A stretch of DNA of 64,000 nucleotides, taken from Pedobacter fastidiosus (GTDB taxonomy: Bacteria > Bacteroidota > Bacteroidia > Sphingobacteriales > Sphingobacteriaceae). Of this stretch, positions 5,917 through 45,611 are shown in pieces. The notes beneath the pieces were generated by a model. It did no database searches, had not been told where the DNA came from, and saw only the letters and a program-made list of their open reading frames with translations. The stretch's first letter is position 1. Each line of letters begins with the position of its first letter. The stretch is taken from NCBI RefSeq assembly GCF_014306625.1, contig NZ_JACRYL010000001.1, positions 398,597 through 462,596 of the forward strand, written 5' to 3'. Made by a program: the position numbers and the translations under genes.

Positions 5917-6546
5917 TTGTTCAATAACTACGATAAAATAGCCAATCACTACGATACTTTAAGTCGATTGGTGTTTTTTAAATCGCAGGTAAATGCACAG
6001 ATTAATCAGTTAAAGTATCTCCCAAAAGATAGGATGGTTTTAATTGTTGGCGGAGGCACAGGCTGGATTCTCGAAGAAATTGCTAAAATCCATTCAAGTG
6101 GATTAAAGATTGTTTATGTGGAGATCTCTGAAAAAATGATTCAACTTTCGCAAAAAAGAAGTTATGCTGAAAACGATGTGCAATTTATAAACCAGGGGAT
6201 AGAAGACTTTGAATCGTCAATTTTATTCGATGTTATCCTTACACCATTTTTGTTCGATAATTTTTCTGAGCAAAGAGCTGTAATGGTTTTTGAAAAATTG
6301 AATGGTTTTTTAGAACCTAACGGACTTTGGTTTTTGGTCGATTTTAGTTTGGGCAATGGGATAGGAGATTGGTGGAAATCATTATTGCTCAACTCCATGT
6401 ACCGCTTCTTTAAGCTTTTATCAGTTGTAGAGGCATCGCAACTTGTAGAAATGAGACCTTATTTTTCTAAGCAATATGAACTTTTACGCGAAGATTTTTA
6501 TTATTCCAATTTTATAAAAGCATCCATTTTCCGAAAAAACCGCTAG
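5917..6546 (+). CDS. Class I SAM-dependent methyltransferase
   Basis: The 209-residue product shows the Rossmann-type SAM-binding motif 'LIVGGGTGWILEEIA' near residue 45 and a following acidic strand end ('VYVEISEKMI'). It begins with TTG at 5917, since no ATG fits the conserved 'YDKIANHYD' start found in many methyltransferases of this fold. The substrate cannot be told. It probably shares a transcript with the UbiA-like gene upstream. Confidence 0.75.
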   Translation: MFNNYDKIANHYDTLSRLVFFKSQVNAQINQLKYLPKDRMVLIVGGGTGWILEEIAKIHSSGLKIVYVEISEKMIQLSQKRSYAENDVQFINQGIEDFESSILFDVILTPFLFDNFSEQRAVMVFEKLNGFLEPNGLWFLVDFSLGNGIGDWWKSLLLNSMYRFFKLLSVVEASQLVEMRPYFSKQYELLREDFYYSNFIKASIFRKNR

Positions 6547-41997: not shown

Positions 41998-42043
41998 CAA
42001 AACTACATCCATTAAATCACCCAACTTTTGACAAAAGTCAAAA
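41998..42043 (-). promoter_or_regulatory. Crp/Fnr-type promoter module, copy 1
   Basis: On the minus strand a perfect palindrome TTTTGAC-TTTT-GTCAAAA (42043-42026) precedes the -7 box TAGTTTTG (42005-41998). The start-to-start spacing of 28 bp is the same in all three copies. With a start of transcription about 5 nt after the box, the palindrome centre lies near -41.5, the usual class II activator position. It is 19 nt upstream of the sterol-desaturase gene. Confidence 0.7.
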
Positions 42044-42250
42044 AATCATTTAAAAGAAGCGCCTAAGATTTTTTAAGTGTCAGTCGGTCTGAAATTATCT
42101 TTCTAGTTTAAGATTGATTCTTACGTAATGCTGATGTATGAGGTTTTTATGTGTTTTTTTTGCTTTATTTCCATTCAAAGTGCTGGTTTTTATTTTAGTG
42201 ACCGCTGGAAAACGAACACTAATACTAGAGTGAGAGGTTAATTGGTTTTA
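42044..42250. other. Non-coding stretch, nothing recognised
   Basis: About 200 bp of AT-rich DNA between the promoter module and the next gene end. I see no open frame, repeat or clear terminator in it. Confidence 0.4.
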
Positions 42251-42913
42251 TTAATTCCAAAGCCTATTTTCTCGTTGTATTTTCAAAATATCAATCATCT
42301 CATTCTGGAAATATTTAGGGTCGTTTTCGAGTATTTCTTTTAAGAATGGCTTTTTTTCTATTAGAGAATTGAGGTATTTATAAACAGAATCACTTTTCTT
42401 TGAGTTGGCACACAAAGACGTTTTTGCACTAGCACCAGCAAGAAATAAATTTCTATCAGTTCGATTTTCCACGTATTGTATATTTTCAATAATATGATCA
42501 AGGTATTTTGTGTTTCCTGTTGCAAAAAATGAAGACCAATTCATGGTATTTAACGTTATAGATACTTTAGCTTTTGAATAAACGGTATCAATATTGGACG
42601 ATAAAAGGAAAATCATTAATCGTTTGATCTTTGGTTTCTTTAAAAGGGTTATTTTATTGCCGAAATCTTTTTTTATAGCTTCATCATTTAAAAATACTGC
42701 ACCATAGAATCCGGTTACAATGGAGCTTAATATCTCATAGTCCATTTGCGTTTTGTTCAAATAATCAATGCTCTTTTCAACAATGCCACTGTCTTTGGAT
42801 AGGTGATAGTTGCTTAATATCTCACTAAAATCTTTGTCGATATTCTGTGCCAAGACTTTTTTTGATGAAAATAAGATAATAGATAAAAGGAGCGTAATCA
42901 GTAAATTTTTCAT
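42251..42913 (-). CDS. Secreted helical protein of unknown function
   Basis: From ATG 42913 the product has 220 residues with a signal peptide ending 'KKVLAQ'. The mature chain is helical and charged, with no Cys pair or catalytic motif that I recognise. Starting at 42988 would place the first codons within the promoter module, so 42913 is preferred. It is controlled by copy 2 of the FNR-type promoter. Confidence 0.6.
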   Translation of the reverse strand: MKNLLITLLLSIILFSSKKVLAQNIDKDFSEILSNYHLSKDSGIVEKSIDYLNKTQMDYEILSSIVTGFYGAVFLNDEAIKKDFGNKITLLKKPKIKRLMIFLLSSNIDTVYSKAKVSITLNTMNWSSFFATGNTKYLDHIIENIQYVENRTDRNLFLAGASAKTSLCANSKKSDSVYKYLNSLIEKKPFLKEILENDPKYFQNEMIDILKIQRENRLWN

Positions 42914-42951
42914 ATTTTTTTTATTTGATTTTAACTGTAATGTGTGTTCTT

Positions 42952-42997
42952 CAAAACTACGACCATTAAATCGCCCAACTTTTGACAAATGTCAAAA
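42952..42997 (-). promoter_or_regulatory. Crp/Fnr-type promoter module, copy 2
   Basis: The palindrome TTTTGAC-ATTT-GTCAAAA (42997-42980, minus strand) precedes TAGTTTTG (42959-42952) with the same 28-bp spacing. It lies 38 nt upstream of the gene starting at 42913. Confidence 0.7.
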
Positions 42998-43002
42998 AAC
43001 AA

Positions 43003-43029
43003 AAAAGCTGACGATTTTCGTCAGCTTTT
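43003..43029 (-). terminator. Terminator of the small membrane protein gene
   Basis: AAAAGCTGACGA (43003-43014) and TCGTCAGCTTTT (43018-43029) form a perfect 12-bp stem with a TTT loop. Minus-strand T-run TTTTTTGTTTTTT follows. It lies between the stop of the gene at 43055 and promoter copy 2, insulating the latter. Confidence 0.85.
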
Positions 43030-43054
43030 GAACTTCTATCTTGATAATCATTAT

Positions 43055-43468
43055 TTAAATATCAGTTTGAGTTATTTGTATTTTTGCCTTGAAACCTTTA
43101 ATGATTAGTGCTGTAGAACTTATTAGAAACACAAGCAATGGGAAAAGAAAATATGGCTTTAATTTTTGATAATTTAATATGTTAGATAAAAACACTTCGT
43201 TTGCCAATAAGATAACCAAAGCAATAGCTAATTGATAACGATCGTTATATTTTTTCGCGAAACATACTATTGAAATTGACGCTGTTACTGAAATACCAAC
43301 AAAACCCAATAACCATGATATTTCATATCCACCTGTAAATGAATCAATAATATCAATAAAAAATTGGTATAAACACAAGAGAATACCAGCAAAGTTGGGA
43401 ATCCCATGTGGACCTAATCCGTTGATAAGTAAAAATGAGATTATTGAAATTATTTTTAGGTATTTCAT
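43055..43468 (-). CDS. Small polytopic membrane protein of unknown function
   Basis: The 137-residue protein has about four predicted membrane helices and a short basic C-terminal tail ('KGFKAKIQITQ'). No family motif is recognisable. It follows the NlpC/P60-like lipoprotein gene by 38 bp and probably shares its transcript, ending at the terminator at 43003-43029. Confidence 0.6.
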   Translation of the reverse strand: MKYLKIISIISFLLINGLGPHGIPNFAGILLCLYQFFIDIIDSFTGGYEISWLLGFVGISVTASISIVCFAKKYNDRYQLAIALVILLANEVFLSNILNYQKLKPYFLFPLLVFLISSTALIIKGFKAKIQITQTDI

Positions 43469-43506
43469 AATATTAATTAGTTGTTTTTTGGTCTAATTAT
43501 TATGTG

Positions 43507-44949
43507 TTATCTATCGCGAGTGCTTGGGCTATTACATGTTCTTTTGGTTTGAGGAGCATTTCCGTCATTACTCGTAGCATAGGGTTGGATGAGTTTCCAT
43601 ATTGTATCAGGCATGGTAATCCCCTTTGTATCAGTGACACCAATGATATTTAATGTGTCTAAAACTGGATTGGCGCAGTTATTTGTTGCTAAATTATAAT
43701 CAGTTAAAGAGTAAGCAATGAACACATTCATAATTTTTTTCAATTGATCTGCTGTAATGTCCCCATAATTAGTTGCTACAGTATATCGATGGCCACTATC
43801 ATCACCCATTATTCCTGGGCCACTAATAGTTGCAGGAAATTCATTCCTTGGATAAAAGCCAACTGTCATAACATTGGCTCCTTGCTTAATTGTAATAAAG
43901 GCATGCCCTGGTAACGATTTAAAGGTTTTTTGTGCATAAACCGTTAACTTAGCCGGTCTACTTTGATCAAAGCAACTAAAAAATTTTTTCATGTTTACTA
44001 TTGGACTCTCAGGTGGTGGAGGCAATAAGTAATTGCTATCTGTACCTCCCTCTGCATCATCACCTCCTCCACTACCTCCACCACTGCCACCATTGTCTTC
44101 TGGATTTGTTGGTGGGTCTGGAAACCAAACGTTTTCGCAAACCTGTTGTTCACTATACTCTACTAAAGACCAAGTTACCCCACACCAGTTTGGGTTCATG
44201 TTACAATTAACAACCATTACAGCTCCTAGTGAACCACCGCAAGCATAACTGTCAGGCAAATAAACGCAATAACTCATTTCTGTATGGCAAATTGTTTCTA
44301 TTGAAGATAGTAATTGCCTATTTGCACCAACTTTTTTTAATATTTCTACTCCTCTTTTTTTATAAGCTTCGCTTACAACTCCGTTTTTATAATCAATAAT
44401 AAAAGATTCTGTTTTCTCTAGATTTCTGAGTAACAAATTTCCTGTGAAATTTTTCAAAGAAATTCTTCCGGGTGGATTATTAGGGATAGGATCATTTTGA
44501 TTTACAGGTAGATAATACATTCCACAATAGAAGTTTTTCTCATTTTTTATTATTAAATATGATTTCGAGCCTTGTTCTTCAACAATAAGAAGTTTGCCAT
44601 CTTTTGTTAAATTTCCAATAAGTGGATAGAAAACATAAGACACGCTATCACTTACAACCTGAGCGCTCGGGTGGCTCCAGTCTGGAACCCAATTTAAGTT
44701 TGGATTTACTTTTGCCCTAAGTTTTTTATCAAGTTTTTTTAAATAGAAACTCTTTTTAATTGCTTCCAGTCTACTTTCAAAATCAGGCGAAGATTTTAAG
44801 AGTACATTTTTCTTTGTCGAGACAGGCTCAAGTTGTTCTTTTTCTCTTGCATCCTTCTTACAAGAGTTTGCAAAAAGAAGCAATAGACATAAAAATAATA
44901 TTGTTGTTTTCGATTTAGGGTGATTGTTAAGTTTAGATTTTAAGTGCAT
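43507..44949 (-). CDS. Lipoprotein with C-terminal papain-like (permuted NlpC/P60-type) domain
   Basis: The 480-residue protein has a lipobox 'FANSC'. Residues 35-260 are of unknown type, with a Cys-rich part at about 220-275. A Gly-rich linker follows (about 285-305). The C-terminal domain (about 325-450) has 'LPGHAFITIKQG' (His 349), 'VGFYPRNEF' and 'NNCANPVLDTL' (Cys 425). His before Cys is the order of circularly permuted papain-like hydrolases. Such domains cleave peptides, amides or acyl groups. It is controlled by promoter copy 3. Confidence 0.6.
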   Translation of the reverse strand: MHLKSKLNNHPKSKTTILFLCLLLLFANSCKKDAREKEQLEPVSTKKNVLLKSSPDFESRLEAIKKSFYLKKLDKKLRAKVNPNLNWVPDWSHPSAQVVSDSVSYVFYPLIGNLTKDGKLLIVEEQGSKSYLIIKNEKNFYCGMYYLPVNQNDPIPNNPPGRISLKNFTGNLLLRNLEKTESFIIDYKNGVVSEAYKKRGVEILKKVGANRQLLSSIETICHTEMSYCVYLPDSYACGGSLGAVMVVNCNMNPNWCGVTWSLVEYSEQQVCENVWFPDPPTNPEDNGGSGGGSGGGDDAEGGTDSNYLLPPPPESPIVNMKKFFSCFDQSRPAKLTVYAQKTFKSLPGHAFITIKQGANVMTVGFYPRNEFPATISGPGIMGDDSGHRYTVATNYGDITADQLKKIMNVFIAYSLTDYNLATNNCANPVLDTLNIIGVTDTKGITMPDTIWKLIQPYATSNDGNAPQTKRTCNSPSTRDR

Positions 44950-44969
44950 AGATTTTGTTTAAGTGAAAC

Positions 44970-45015
44970 CAAAACTACACCCATTAAATCACCCAACTTT
45001 TGACAAAAGTCAAAA
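44970..45015 (-). promoter_or_regulatory. Crp/Fnr-type promoter module, copy 3
   Basis: The palindrome TTTTGAC-TTTT-GTCAAAA (45015-44998, minus strand) precedes TAGTTTTG (44977-44970), spaced as in copies 1 and 2. It lies 20 nt upstream of the lipoprotein gene and only 2 bp after the stop codon of the Crp/Fnr gene. Confidence 0.7.
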
Positions 45016-45017
45016 AA

Positions 45018-45611
45018 TCATTTTTGCTTTCTAATCCTGCTTAATGTTTCCTGAGAAATCCCTAAGTAAGATGCAATGTGCCCTAACGACACTCTATTGA
45101 ATAATTTGGGATTATGCAACATCAGCTGATCGTAGCGTTGCTTGGCACTTAACATTCTTAAATTATTGGTTTGTTCCTCGTTGCGGATGTAATAATATTC
45201 TGTGAGTTTCCTGCCCGAATAATTAAACTCCATAAACTGAAGATACATTTCATCTAATTTATCTCGCTTAACAGCAATCAACGTAGAATCTTCAAGCGTT
45301 TCTATATATTCAAAACTTGGCTGACCGGTAAAAAAACCATAAACAGAAATAAGCAGTTCGTTTTCAAACAGAAACCAAGTATTAGTTTCCTTGCCTTCTT
45401 TATCAAGATAATAAACCCTTGCGCCACCGTTTACAATAAAATATATGGTATTGCTATGGTCTCCAGCATTTAATAAAATGGTTTTCCTTTTAACTCCAAC
45501 AACCTCGCTATTCTTAATTATGGCAACTTTTATTTCTTCGCTAAGCGGATAAATTGAATTAAAAACTGCAAATATTCCCTGATAATGAGCTGGATAAGTT
45601 TCGTTAGGCAT
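45018..45611 (-). CDS. Crp/Fnr-family transcriptional regulator
   Basis: The 197-residue product has a cyclic-nucleotide-binding-like beta-roll (about 25-125, with 'ILLNAGDHSNTIYFIVNGGA') and a C-terminal helix-turn-helix 'LGHIASYLGISQETLSRIR'. The recognition helix has Glu 188, Ser 191 and Arg 192, the E--SR pattern that in FNR reads TTGA half-sites. There is no N-terminal Cys cluster, so it is not an oxygen-sensing FNR, and the ligand is unknown. It lies directly upstream of one of three TTGAC-N4-GTCAA promoters and is the natural candidate for their activator. Confidence 0.9.
   Translation of the reverse strand: MPNETYPAHYQGIFAVFNSIYPLSEEIKVAIIKNSEVVGVKRKTILLNAGDHSNTIYFIVNGGARVYYLDKEGKETNTWFLFENELLISVYGFFTGQPSFEYIETLEDSTLIAVKRDKLDEMYLQFMEFNYSGRKLTEYYYIRNEEQTNNLRMLSAKQRYDQLMLHNPKLFNRVSLGHIASYLGISQETLSRIRKQK

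Follow-up and report, generated by a model that had tools for sequence, protein, structure and literature searches.

A cysteine-free Crp/Fnr-type regulator of Pedobacter fastidiosus and three near-identical promoter modules predicted to form its private regulon

FNR of Escherichia coli acts at class II promoters through operators of the form TTGAT-N4-ATCAA, and it is with this system that we compare a locus found in a 64,000-nucleotide stretch of Pedobacter fastidiosus DNA (NCBI RefSeq assembly GCF_014306625.1, contig NZ_JACRYL010000001.1, positions 398,597 to 462,596 of the forward strand; hereafter the window, whose own numbering is used throughout). The locus comprises a Crp/Fnr-type regulator gene and three near-identical promoter modules, which share with FNR the TTGAC/T half-site, the N4 spacing, the E--SR recognition helix and a predicted operator position of -41.5, but differ from it in that the regulator is cysteine-free, the promoters are only three and all local, and the -7 box is of the Bacteroidota kind. 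Crp/Fnr proteins are numerous in these bacteria and, to our knowledge, this group has no assigned targets. Another instructive relative is CprK of Desulfitobacterium, which senses chlorinated phenols, controls halorespiration operons and has, at the position of FNR Glu-209, a natural Val that goes with TTAA half-sites (according to the portion of PMC2610375 drawn on here); Val-type relatives of the window regulator resemble it in this respect, while the window regulator itself is of the Glu type. The first-pass annotation of this DNA had proposed a local Crp/Fnr regulon and, as far as sequence can tell, this proposal is supported, since the module is unique, is retained together with the regulator and has a fixed gap, and since the helix residue tracks the operator base. 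Very probably, then, the 45018-45611 protein binds all three palindromes and activates the three promoters from the class II position, which would make this a private regulon.

A module is a TTTTGAC-N4-GTCAAAA palindrome, 20 base pairs (bp) of any sequence and a TAnnTTTG box, read on the minus strand, the three boxes all being TAGTTTTG. The coordinates of the three perfect palindromes and of their constantly offset boxes, as first annotated, were rechecked and are exact (with a 20-bp gap each), and the regulator does lie directly upstream of copy 3, whose palindrome begins 2 bp after its stop codon. The features are:

45018..45611, minus strand: Crp/Fnr-type regulator, 197 amino acids, with a cyclic nucleotide (cNMP)-binding domain and the C-terminal recognition helix ISQETLSRIRKQK
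44998..45015, minus strand: operator copy 3, TTTTGACTTTTGTCAAAA, 2 bp past the regulator stop codon
44970..44977, minus strand: -7 box TAGTTTTG of promoter 3, predicted transcription start ~44965
42980..42997, minus strand: operator copy 2, TTTTGACATTTGTCAAAA, from the palindrome and module search
42952..42959, minus strand: -7 box TAGTTTTG of promoter 2, predicted transcription start ~42947
42026..42043, minus strand: operator copy 1, TTTTGACTTTTGTCAAAA, from the palindrome and module search
41998..42005, minus strand: -7 box TAGTTTTG of promoter 1, predicted transcription start ~41993

Copies 1 and 3 have a single difference over a stretch that starts 8 bp ahead of the palindrome and ends with the box; copy 2 differs from both at 4 positions over a stretch that starts 2 bp ahead of the palindrome and likewise ends with the box. 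In the mechanism that we propose, the regulator would bind each palindrome as a dimer, each of its E--SR helices reading one TTGAC half-site, and its contact next to the -7 box would recruit RNA polymerase to promoters that would be weak without their activator.

The regulator has a clear Crp/Fnr N-terminal domain (PF00027, E 3.3e-12, above its cut-off), and its winged helix-turn-helix is covered by an alignment that runs through the recognition helix to residue 196 of the closest solved structure by sequence, the cyclic nucleotide binding regulatory protein PDB 3dn7 (E 1.7e-14, residues 37-196). This helix reads ISQETLSRIRKQ and is of the E--SR type; the 3dn7 protein, for which we know of no operator, has PEYLSEIR where the window regulator has QETLSRIR. 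The CRP phosphate-binding cassette holds cyclic AMP (cAMP) with an Arg-Ser pair, R82/S83, in the place of which the window regulator has Ser and Phe (GQPSFEY aligned under GQERSAW), and there is not one cysteine among its 197 residues. It is therefore neither an iron-sulfur FNR nor an obvious cAMP receptor, its scores against the FNR and CRP models (23 bits for a cut-off of 228 and 27 bits for a cut-off of 266) being in keeping with this; neither cAMP nor an iron-sulfur cluster of the FNR type is likely to be what it senses with.

How regularly are regulator and module found together? Six of 59 genomes, that of P. fastidiosus included, encode a regulator of at least 68% identity, and the exact palindrome adjoins its stop codon in five of them (the sixth has one mismatch); four of the other 53 genomes have an exact palindrome at some place. 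A scan of one genome per species across 84,980 species, restricted to close relatives, gave 27 named loci, mostly in Pedobacter, with regulators of 56-92% identity (92% in P. paludis). In 25 of the 27, a palindrome with at most three mismatches and a box with at most two stand exactly 20 bp apart beside the regulator stop codon, at 2-14 bp from it except in L098 (66 bp, the regulator frame ending early); the same criterion is satisfied at 6 of 300,695 other same-strand positions in these loci, four of which lie behind the regulator and are additional modules with 0-1 mismatch (in L080, L085, L087 and L089), so that multi-module loci recur. The syntenic comparison that the first reading had called for thus finds regulator and motif kept together. 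Both module-less loci have a truncated or fused regulator: the match stops at residue 170 in L099, where the frame reads on, and at residue 108 in L105 (P. ghigonis, 6001-6483). The L105 frame runs into the apparent end of an FA_hydroxylase gene and the module is gone, as if by a regulator-cargo deletion. In L098 and L066, the regulator frame stops before the recognition helix with operator and box intact 66 bp further on, which is probably a recent loss.

The predicted arrangement recurs in much of the regulator's family. We scored 171 homologue loci, reduced to 145 non-redundant ones by merging identical tails or downstream sequences, with a strict test that presupposes no motif (an 18-mer inverted repeat with at least 6/7 pairs and a box in which one mismatch is tolerated, between -25 and +80 relative to the stop codon). 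The strict cassette, palindrome plus box at 20 bp, is present in 53 of the 145, against 0.35 expected from Markov sequences, and at 7 of 509 control open reading frame ends, two of which are module-like (one is a second module, that of L008, the other a Val-type operator close to L026). Broken down by identity, its frequency is 27/32 at 55% or more, 10/24 at 45-55%, 7/32 at 40-45% and 9/57 below 40%. When the gap was scanned from 8 to 35 bp, 20 bp scored in 53 loci, 21 bp in 4, 32 bp in 10, 33 bp in 6 and every other length in 0-2, and 14 of the 16 scores at 32 and 33 bp are second readings of loci with a 20-bp module.

The 27 cassettes that pass this test among the 32 non-redundant regulators of at least 55% identity serve as a footprint. 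Information content is 1.1-2.0 bits at the half-site positions, 1.6-2.0 bits at the six defined positions of the box and 0.02-0.72 bits within the 20-bp spacer. Because the set was chosen for pairing and a box, their conservation is in part built in, but that of TTTTGAC itself is not, nor is the spacer drift. A gap that is constant over a drifting spacer looks as though imposed by one protein contacting both ends. In Flavobacterium psychrophilum, a TAnnTTTG box lies at -12 to -5 (in the portion of PMC9723704 used here), and with this position a 20-bp gap occupies -32 to -13 and the palindrome -50 to -33, its centre falling at -41.5, which gives the predicted starts listed above; the palindromes would thus sit at the class II activator position, by analogy with the box of another genus. 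In the -33 region, which the first-pass annotation had called weak in all three promoters, the commonest sequence is a GTTG right after the palindrome, each base of which is present in just 13-15 of the 27 cassettes; this fits activator dependence, without amounting to proof of it.

Some Crp/Fnr proteins are repressors, and GTTG as a possible -33 element in about half of the cassettes would suit a regulator that binds the palindromes to block RNA polymerase, a rival that we nevertheless consider unlikely: the palindrome lies entirely on the upstream side of the -7 box (-50 to -33), and the gap is 20 bp in nearly every scored cassette, whereas other gap lengths ought to be acceptable for a repressor site.

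If the adjacent gene encodes the protein that reads these operators, its recognition helix is where this might be visible. A laxer scan (at least 5/7 pairs) yielded an operator in 67 of the 145 loci. With Glu helices, 100 of the 102 half-sites have G at position 5 (51 of 111 loci; TTGAC/T), with Val helices 12/12 have A or T there (6 of 17 loci; TTAAC, TTTAC and one TTAGC), His helices go with TTGCC in 6/6 (3/3 loci) and Ser helices (6 of 9 loci) mostly with TTGAC or TTGCC, some cases being weak. Val-192 of CprK is the equivalent of FNR Glu-209 and pairs with TTAAT, while in FNR-type sites C replaces T at the contacted position (both from the part of PMC2610375 available here), and the Glu and Val groups, judged by their predicted operators, follow this published FNR/CprK rule. 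That the E--SR helix would be an FNR-like TTGA reader, as initially suggested, is supported by a helix residue that tracks the operator base across the family. The Val-type regulators with TTAAC, TTTAC or TTAGC operators are those of L020, L022, L023, L032, L162 and L191; in the first five, 70-78 bp separate the regulator from the start of the next gene, which resembles a small multidrug-resistance (SMR) transporter (PF00893, tested in L022 and L162).

These same data bear on whether another Crp/Fnr paralogue reads the palindromes, the adjacent regulator being a bystander. The genome has paralogues to spare (26-27 Crp/Fnr-like candidates at first look, 8 matches at E 1e-20), but the operator is retained with the adjacent regulator, its base changes with the helix residue of that very gene, and the two named loci without a module are those whose regulator is truncated or fused; a bystander role therefore seems very improbable.

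In the window, 11 palindrome matches with at most three mismatches compare with 12.1 expected from shuffles, and the three without mismatch are those of the modules. Across the genome (5,270,233 bases), the exact palindrome occurs in these three places only and the reversed pattern nowhere, while the full module with at most three mismatches has 8 matches against 1 for the control: three with no mismatch, none with one, two with two (one of them copy 1 read on the opposite strand) and three with three. Since the exact module occurs just three times and has no one-mismatch copy, it is private to the regulator locus, and the genome scan that had been suggested for revealing a mobile repeat uncovers no dispersed repeat. 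Three copies so alike, spacer included, might recall a small mobile or repeated element of 50 bp that landed three times near a Crp/Fnr gene by chance; however, the rest of the 5.27 Mb has neither an exact copy nor one with a single mismatch, the window copies are always upstream of a gene start and in the same orientation, the spacer has diverged between species while both ends are kept, and the position behind the regulator recurs in 25 of 27 loci, all of which makes this rival scarcely credible. It is its dispersed form that is contradicted, local duplication of the module staying within the explanation that we favour. That the palindrome is the intrinsic terminator of the regulator gene, as the 2 bp between stop codon and copy 3 might suggest, can be dismissed with near certainty, because copies 1 and 2 are not behind the regulator, GTTGGG rather than a T run follows on the minus strand, the search for terminator-like hairpins did not flag it and termination has no use for a constant distance to a -7 box. 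Two other occurrences may be mentioned: (i) a weaker class II-like module in the same genome (TCTTGACCGAAGTCAATG, 20 bp, TAATTTTG; L173, G000:C15:63019-63064), which precedes a small gene and has another gene of Crp/Fnr-like appearance close by, and (ii) three exact palindromes with differing central bases on three contigs of an unrelated genome of the same class (G048; C34:19696, C123:7178 and C189:3051).

Several observations weigh against activation by the adjacent regulator. Concerning the cassette, (i) by the strict test it is limited to 53 of 145 homologues, (ii) two clades, one with the helix ETLSRIRAKI and one with MCHQTQN-like tails, lack it entirely, (iii) L112, L118 and L120 score with a gap of 21 bp and a weaker box, (iv) GTTG could act as a -33 element in about half of the orthologous cassettes and (v) the palindrome with one mismatch allowed is not enriched in the genome (6 places, 12 for the reversed control), so that its exact form is what stands out. 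Concerning the regulator, (i) no Pfam helix-turn-helix model matches its C-terminus at E 0.001, (ii) the Glu half-sites include two exceptions among 102 (at least one, in L111, is probably a mis-scored site), (iii) just 6 of 17 Val-type rows have a scorable operator, (iv) these rows are drawn in the tree as only two clades with Glu rows between, so that the Glu/Val contrast rests on few independent events, and (v) autoregulation is not indicated, a near-operator with at most three mismatches being present upstream of the regulator in 10 of 53 cassettes, hardly more than the 8 of 53 with a reversed operator.

Regulators with MCHQTQN-like tails often have a lipoprotein gene beginning 4-48 bp past their stop codon. 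This sister clade has the helix SRETLSRIRRKK (L014, L016, L126, L129, L130, L132, L133 and L136-L138), its lipoproteins are mostly papain-like and come without a palindrome, and regulator and lipoprotein are probably cotranscribed.

What, then, would the three promoters drive? On the minus strand, the regulator is followed by operator 3, a lipoprotein gene, a small membrane protein gene, a hairpin, operator 2, the gene for a 220-residue secreted protein, operator 1 and the gene for an FA_hydroxylase enzyme:

43507..44949, minus strand: cargo 1, lipoprotein of 480 amino acids with an N-terminal domain, a Gly/Pro-rich linker and a C-terminal permuted-papain-like domain
43055..43468, minus strand: small membrane protein, 137 amino acids, directly behind cargo 1, a candidate partner or immunity protein
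43003..43029, minus strand: terminator-like hairpin with a T tail, just upstream of module 2
42251..42913, minus strand: cargo 2, secreted protein of 220 amino acids
41262..41978, minus strand: cargo 3, FA_hydroxylase (sterol desaturase-like) enzyme of 238 amino acids (PF04116, E 1e-29)

Terminator-like sites are no commoner in this region than chance would have it (2 found, 3.7 expected in shuffles), so that it is the position of the hairpin and not its presence that carries the argument. For cargo 2, a start at 42913 is more likely than the listed TTG (42988), which falls inside the palindrome; named members of its family are mostly from Pedobacter, one of them directly behind the module in P. 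aquatilis (L093). For cargo 3, the OlsE model scores below its cut-off.

Although the site is conserved, the genes behind the module are not the same from locus to locus. Among 28 loci compared for their flanks, one of them a stretch of the window that stops short of the upstream oxygenase gene, a serine-hydrolase-like gene (PF00144) is downstream in 17 and a 2-oxoglutarate oxygenase (PF03171) upstream in 16, and the genes between the regulator and the serine-hydrolase-like flank differ. In the 25 named loci with a module, the first cargo is a lipoprotein in 15 (by lipobox judged by eye; some are broken, cut by a contig end or reduced), an FA_hydroxylase in 6 (PF04116 in all six) and, in one locus each, a relative of the small membrane protein, one of the 220-residue protein, a flavin adenine dinucleotide (FAD) oxidase (PF01565) and an unassigned 382-residue protein. 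The three targets had been described as lacking any known link to one another; this no longer holds, since each of their families supplies the first cargo of an orthologous regulator elsewhere, in another species. At the same spot, regulators that are less closely related are followed by FA_hydroxylases (L110, L111 and L114), SMR transporters (PF00893; L019, L022, L145, L162 and L164) or FAD oxidases (L070 and L071).

The spacers of the window modules are near-identical although those of different species diverge, which points to a recent local duplication or conversion as the probable origin of the triplet. The regulator and its 3' operator would then be a fixed anchor, with cargo behind it exchanged or stacked by module duplication, and the window would hold three stacked units: the toxin-like lipoprotein with its candidate immunity protein, the 220-residue secreted protein and the lipid-hydroxylase-type enzyme. 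It is conceivable, if rather less than assured, that regulator and 3'-end operator-promoter act as a docking point where recombination at the duplicated 50-bp module swaps or stacks cargo, in effect an integrase-free cassette array. Any newcomer gene, polymorphic lipoprotein toxins and their immunity partners included, might in that case come at once under the same regulator, a corollary that we hold just as tentatively.

The predicted logic is that of an ordinary class II Crp/Fnr system; what appears unusual is the fixed anchoring to the 3' end of the regulator gene together with a variable, partly toxin-like cargo, and what seems new is the variation of genes behind a module at a conserved site. 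No description of the wider regulator-anchored architecture was found in the literature searched. Owing to an operator placed at the 3' end of its regulator gene in a fixed geometry, the target promoter becomes readable from the genome, and the helix residue predicts the operator base. If this is true, some fifty uncharacterised regulators of the present sample and their neighbours (hydroxylases, small multidrug-resistance-type transporters, FAD oxidases and toxin-like lipoproteins) become testable by simple assays, and provide a natural series for the study of regulator-operator co-evolution and of how new genes enter a regulon.

The lipoproteins behind the modules have common N-termini, exchanged C-terminal domains and small partner genes. 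As in the domain swaps of polymorphic toxins, the N-terminus found in the window is joined to papain-like, SprT/HExxH-type and other C-termini, and the papain-like domain is also found on unrelated N-termini. A Pfam search with cargo 1 gave no match, and its His349 and Cys425 are invariant in 17 aligned proteins. Homologues of the 137-residue protein follow the same C-terminal type in L081 and in L083 (where the lipoprotein gene is broken), and in P. paludis (L080) one follows the module immediately, no lipoprotein being present. A putative pairing of one small family with one C-terminal type is seen in a few cases only, c19 in the window, L081 and L083 and c29 in L087 and L090. Cargo 1 and the small membrane protein resemble a polymorphic toxin-immunity system, a predicted weapon against rival bacteria. 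Their architecture can be likened to that of the SitA/SitI lipoprotein toxins of Myxococcus (as presented in the portion of PMC5562445 used here), in that both combine related N-termini with unrelated C-termini and a small gene behind, but the recognisable C-termini here look like those of peptidases, not nucleases, and a Crp/Fnr regulator is linked to the operon. Runs of small genes reminiscent of immunity arrays follow lipoproteins in L103 (8093-9462), L081 (9781-10663) and L052 (3508-4924), and within the L103 and L081 runs these small genes are related to one another.

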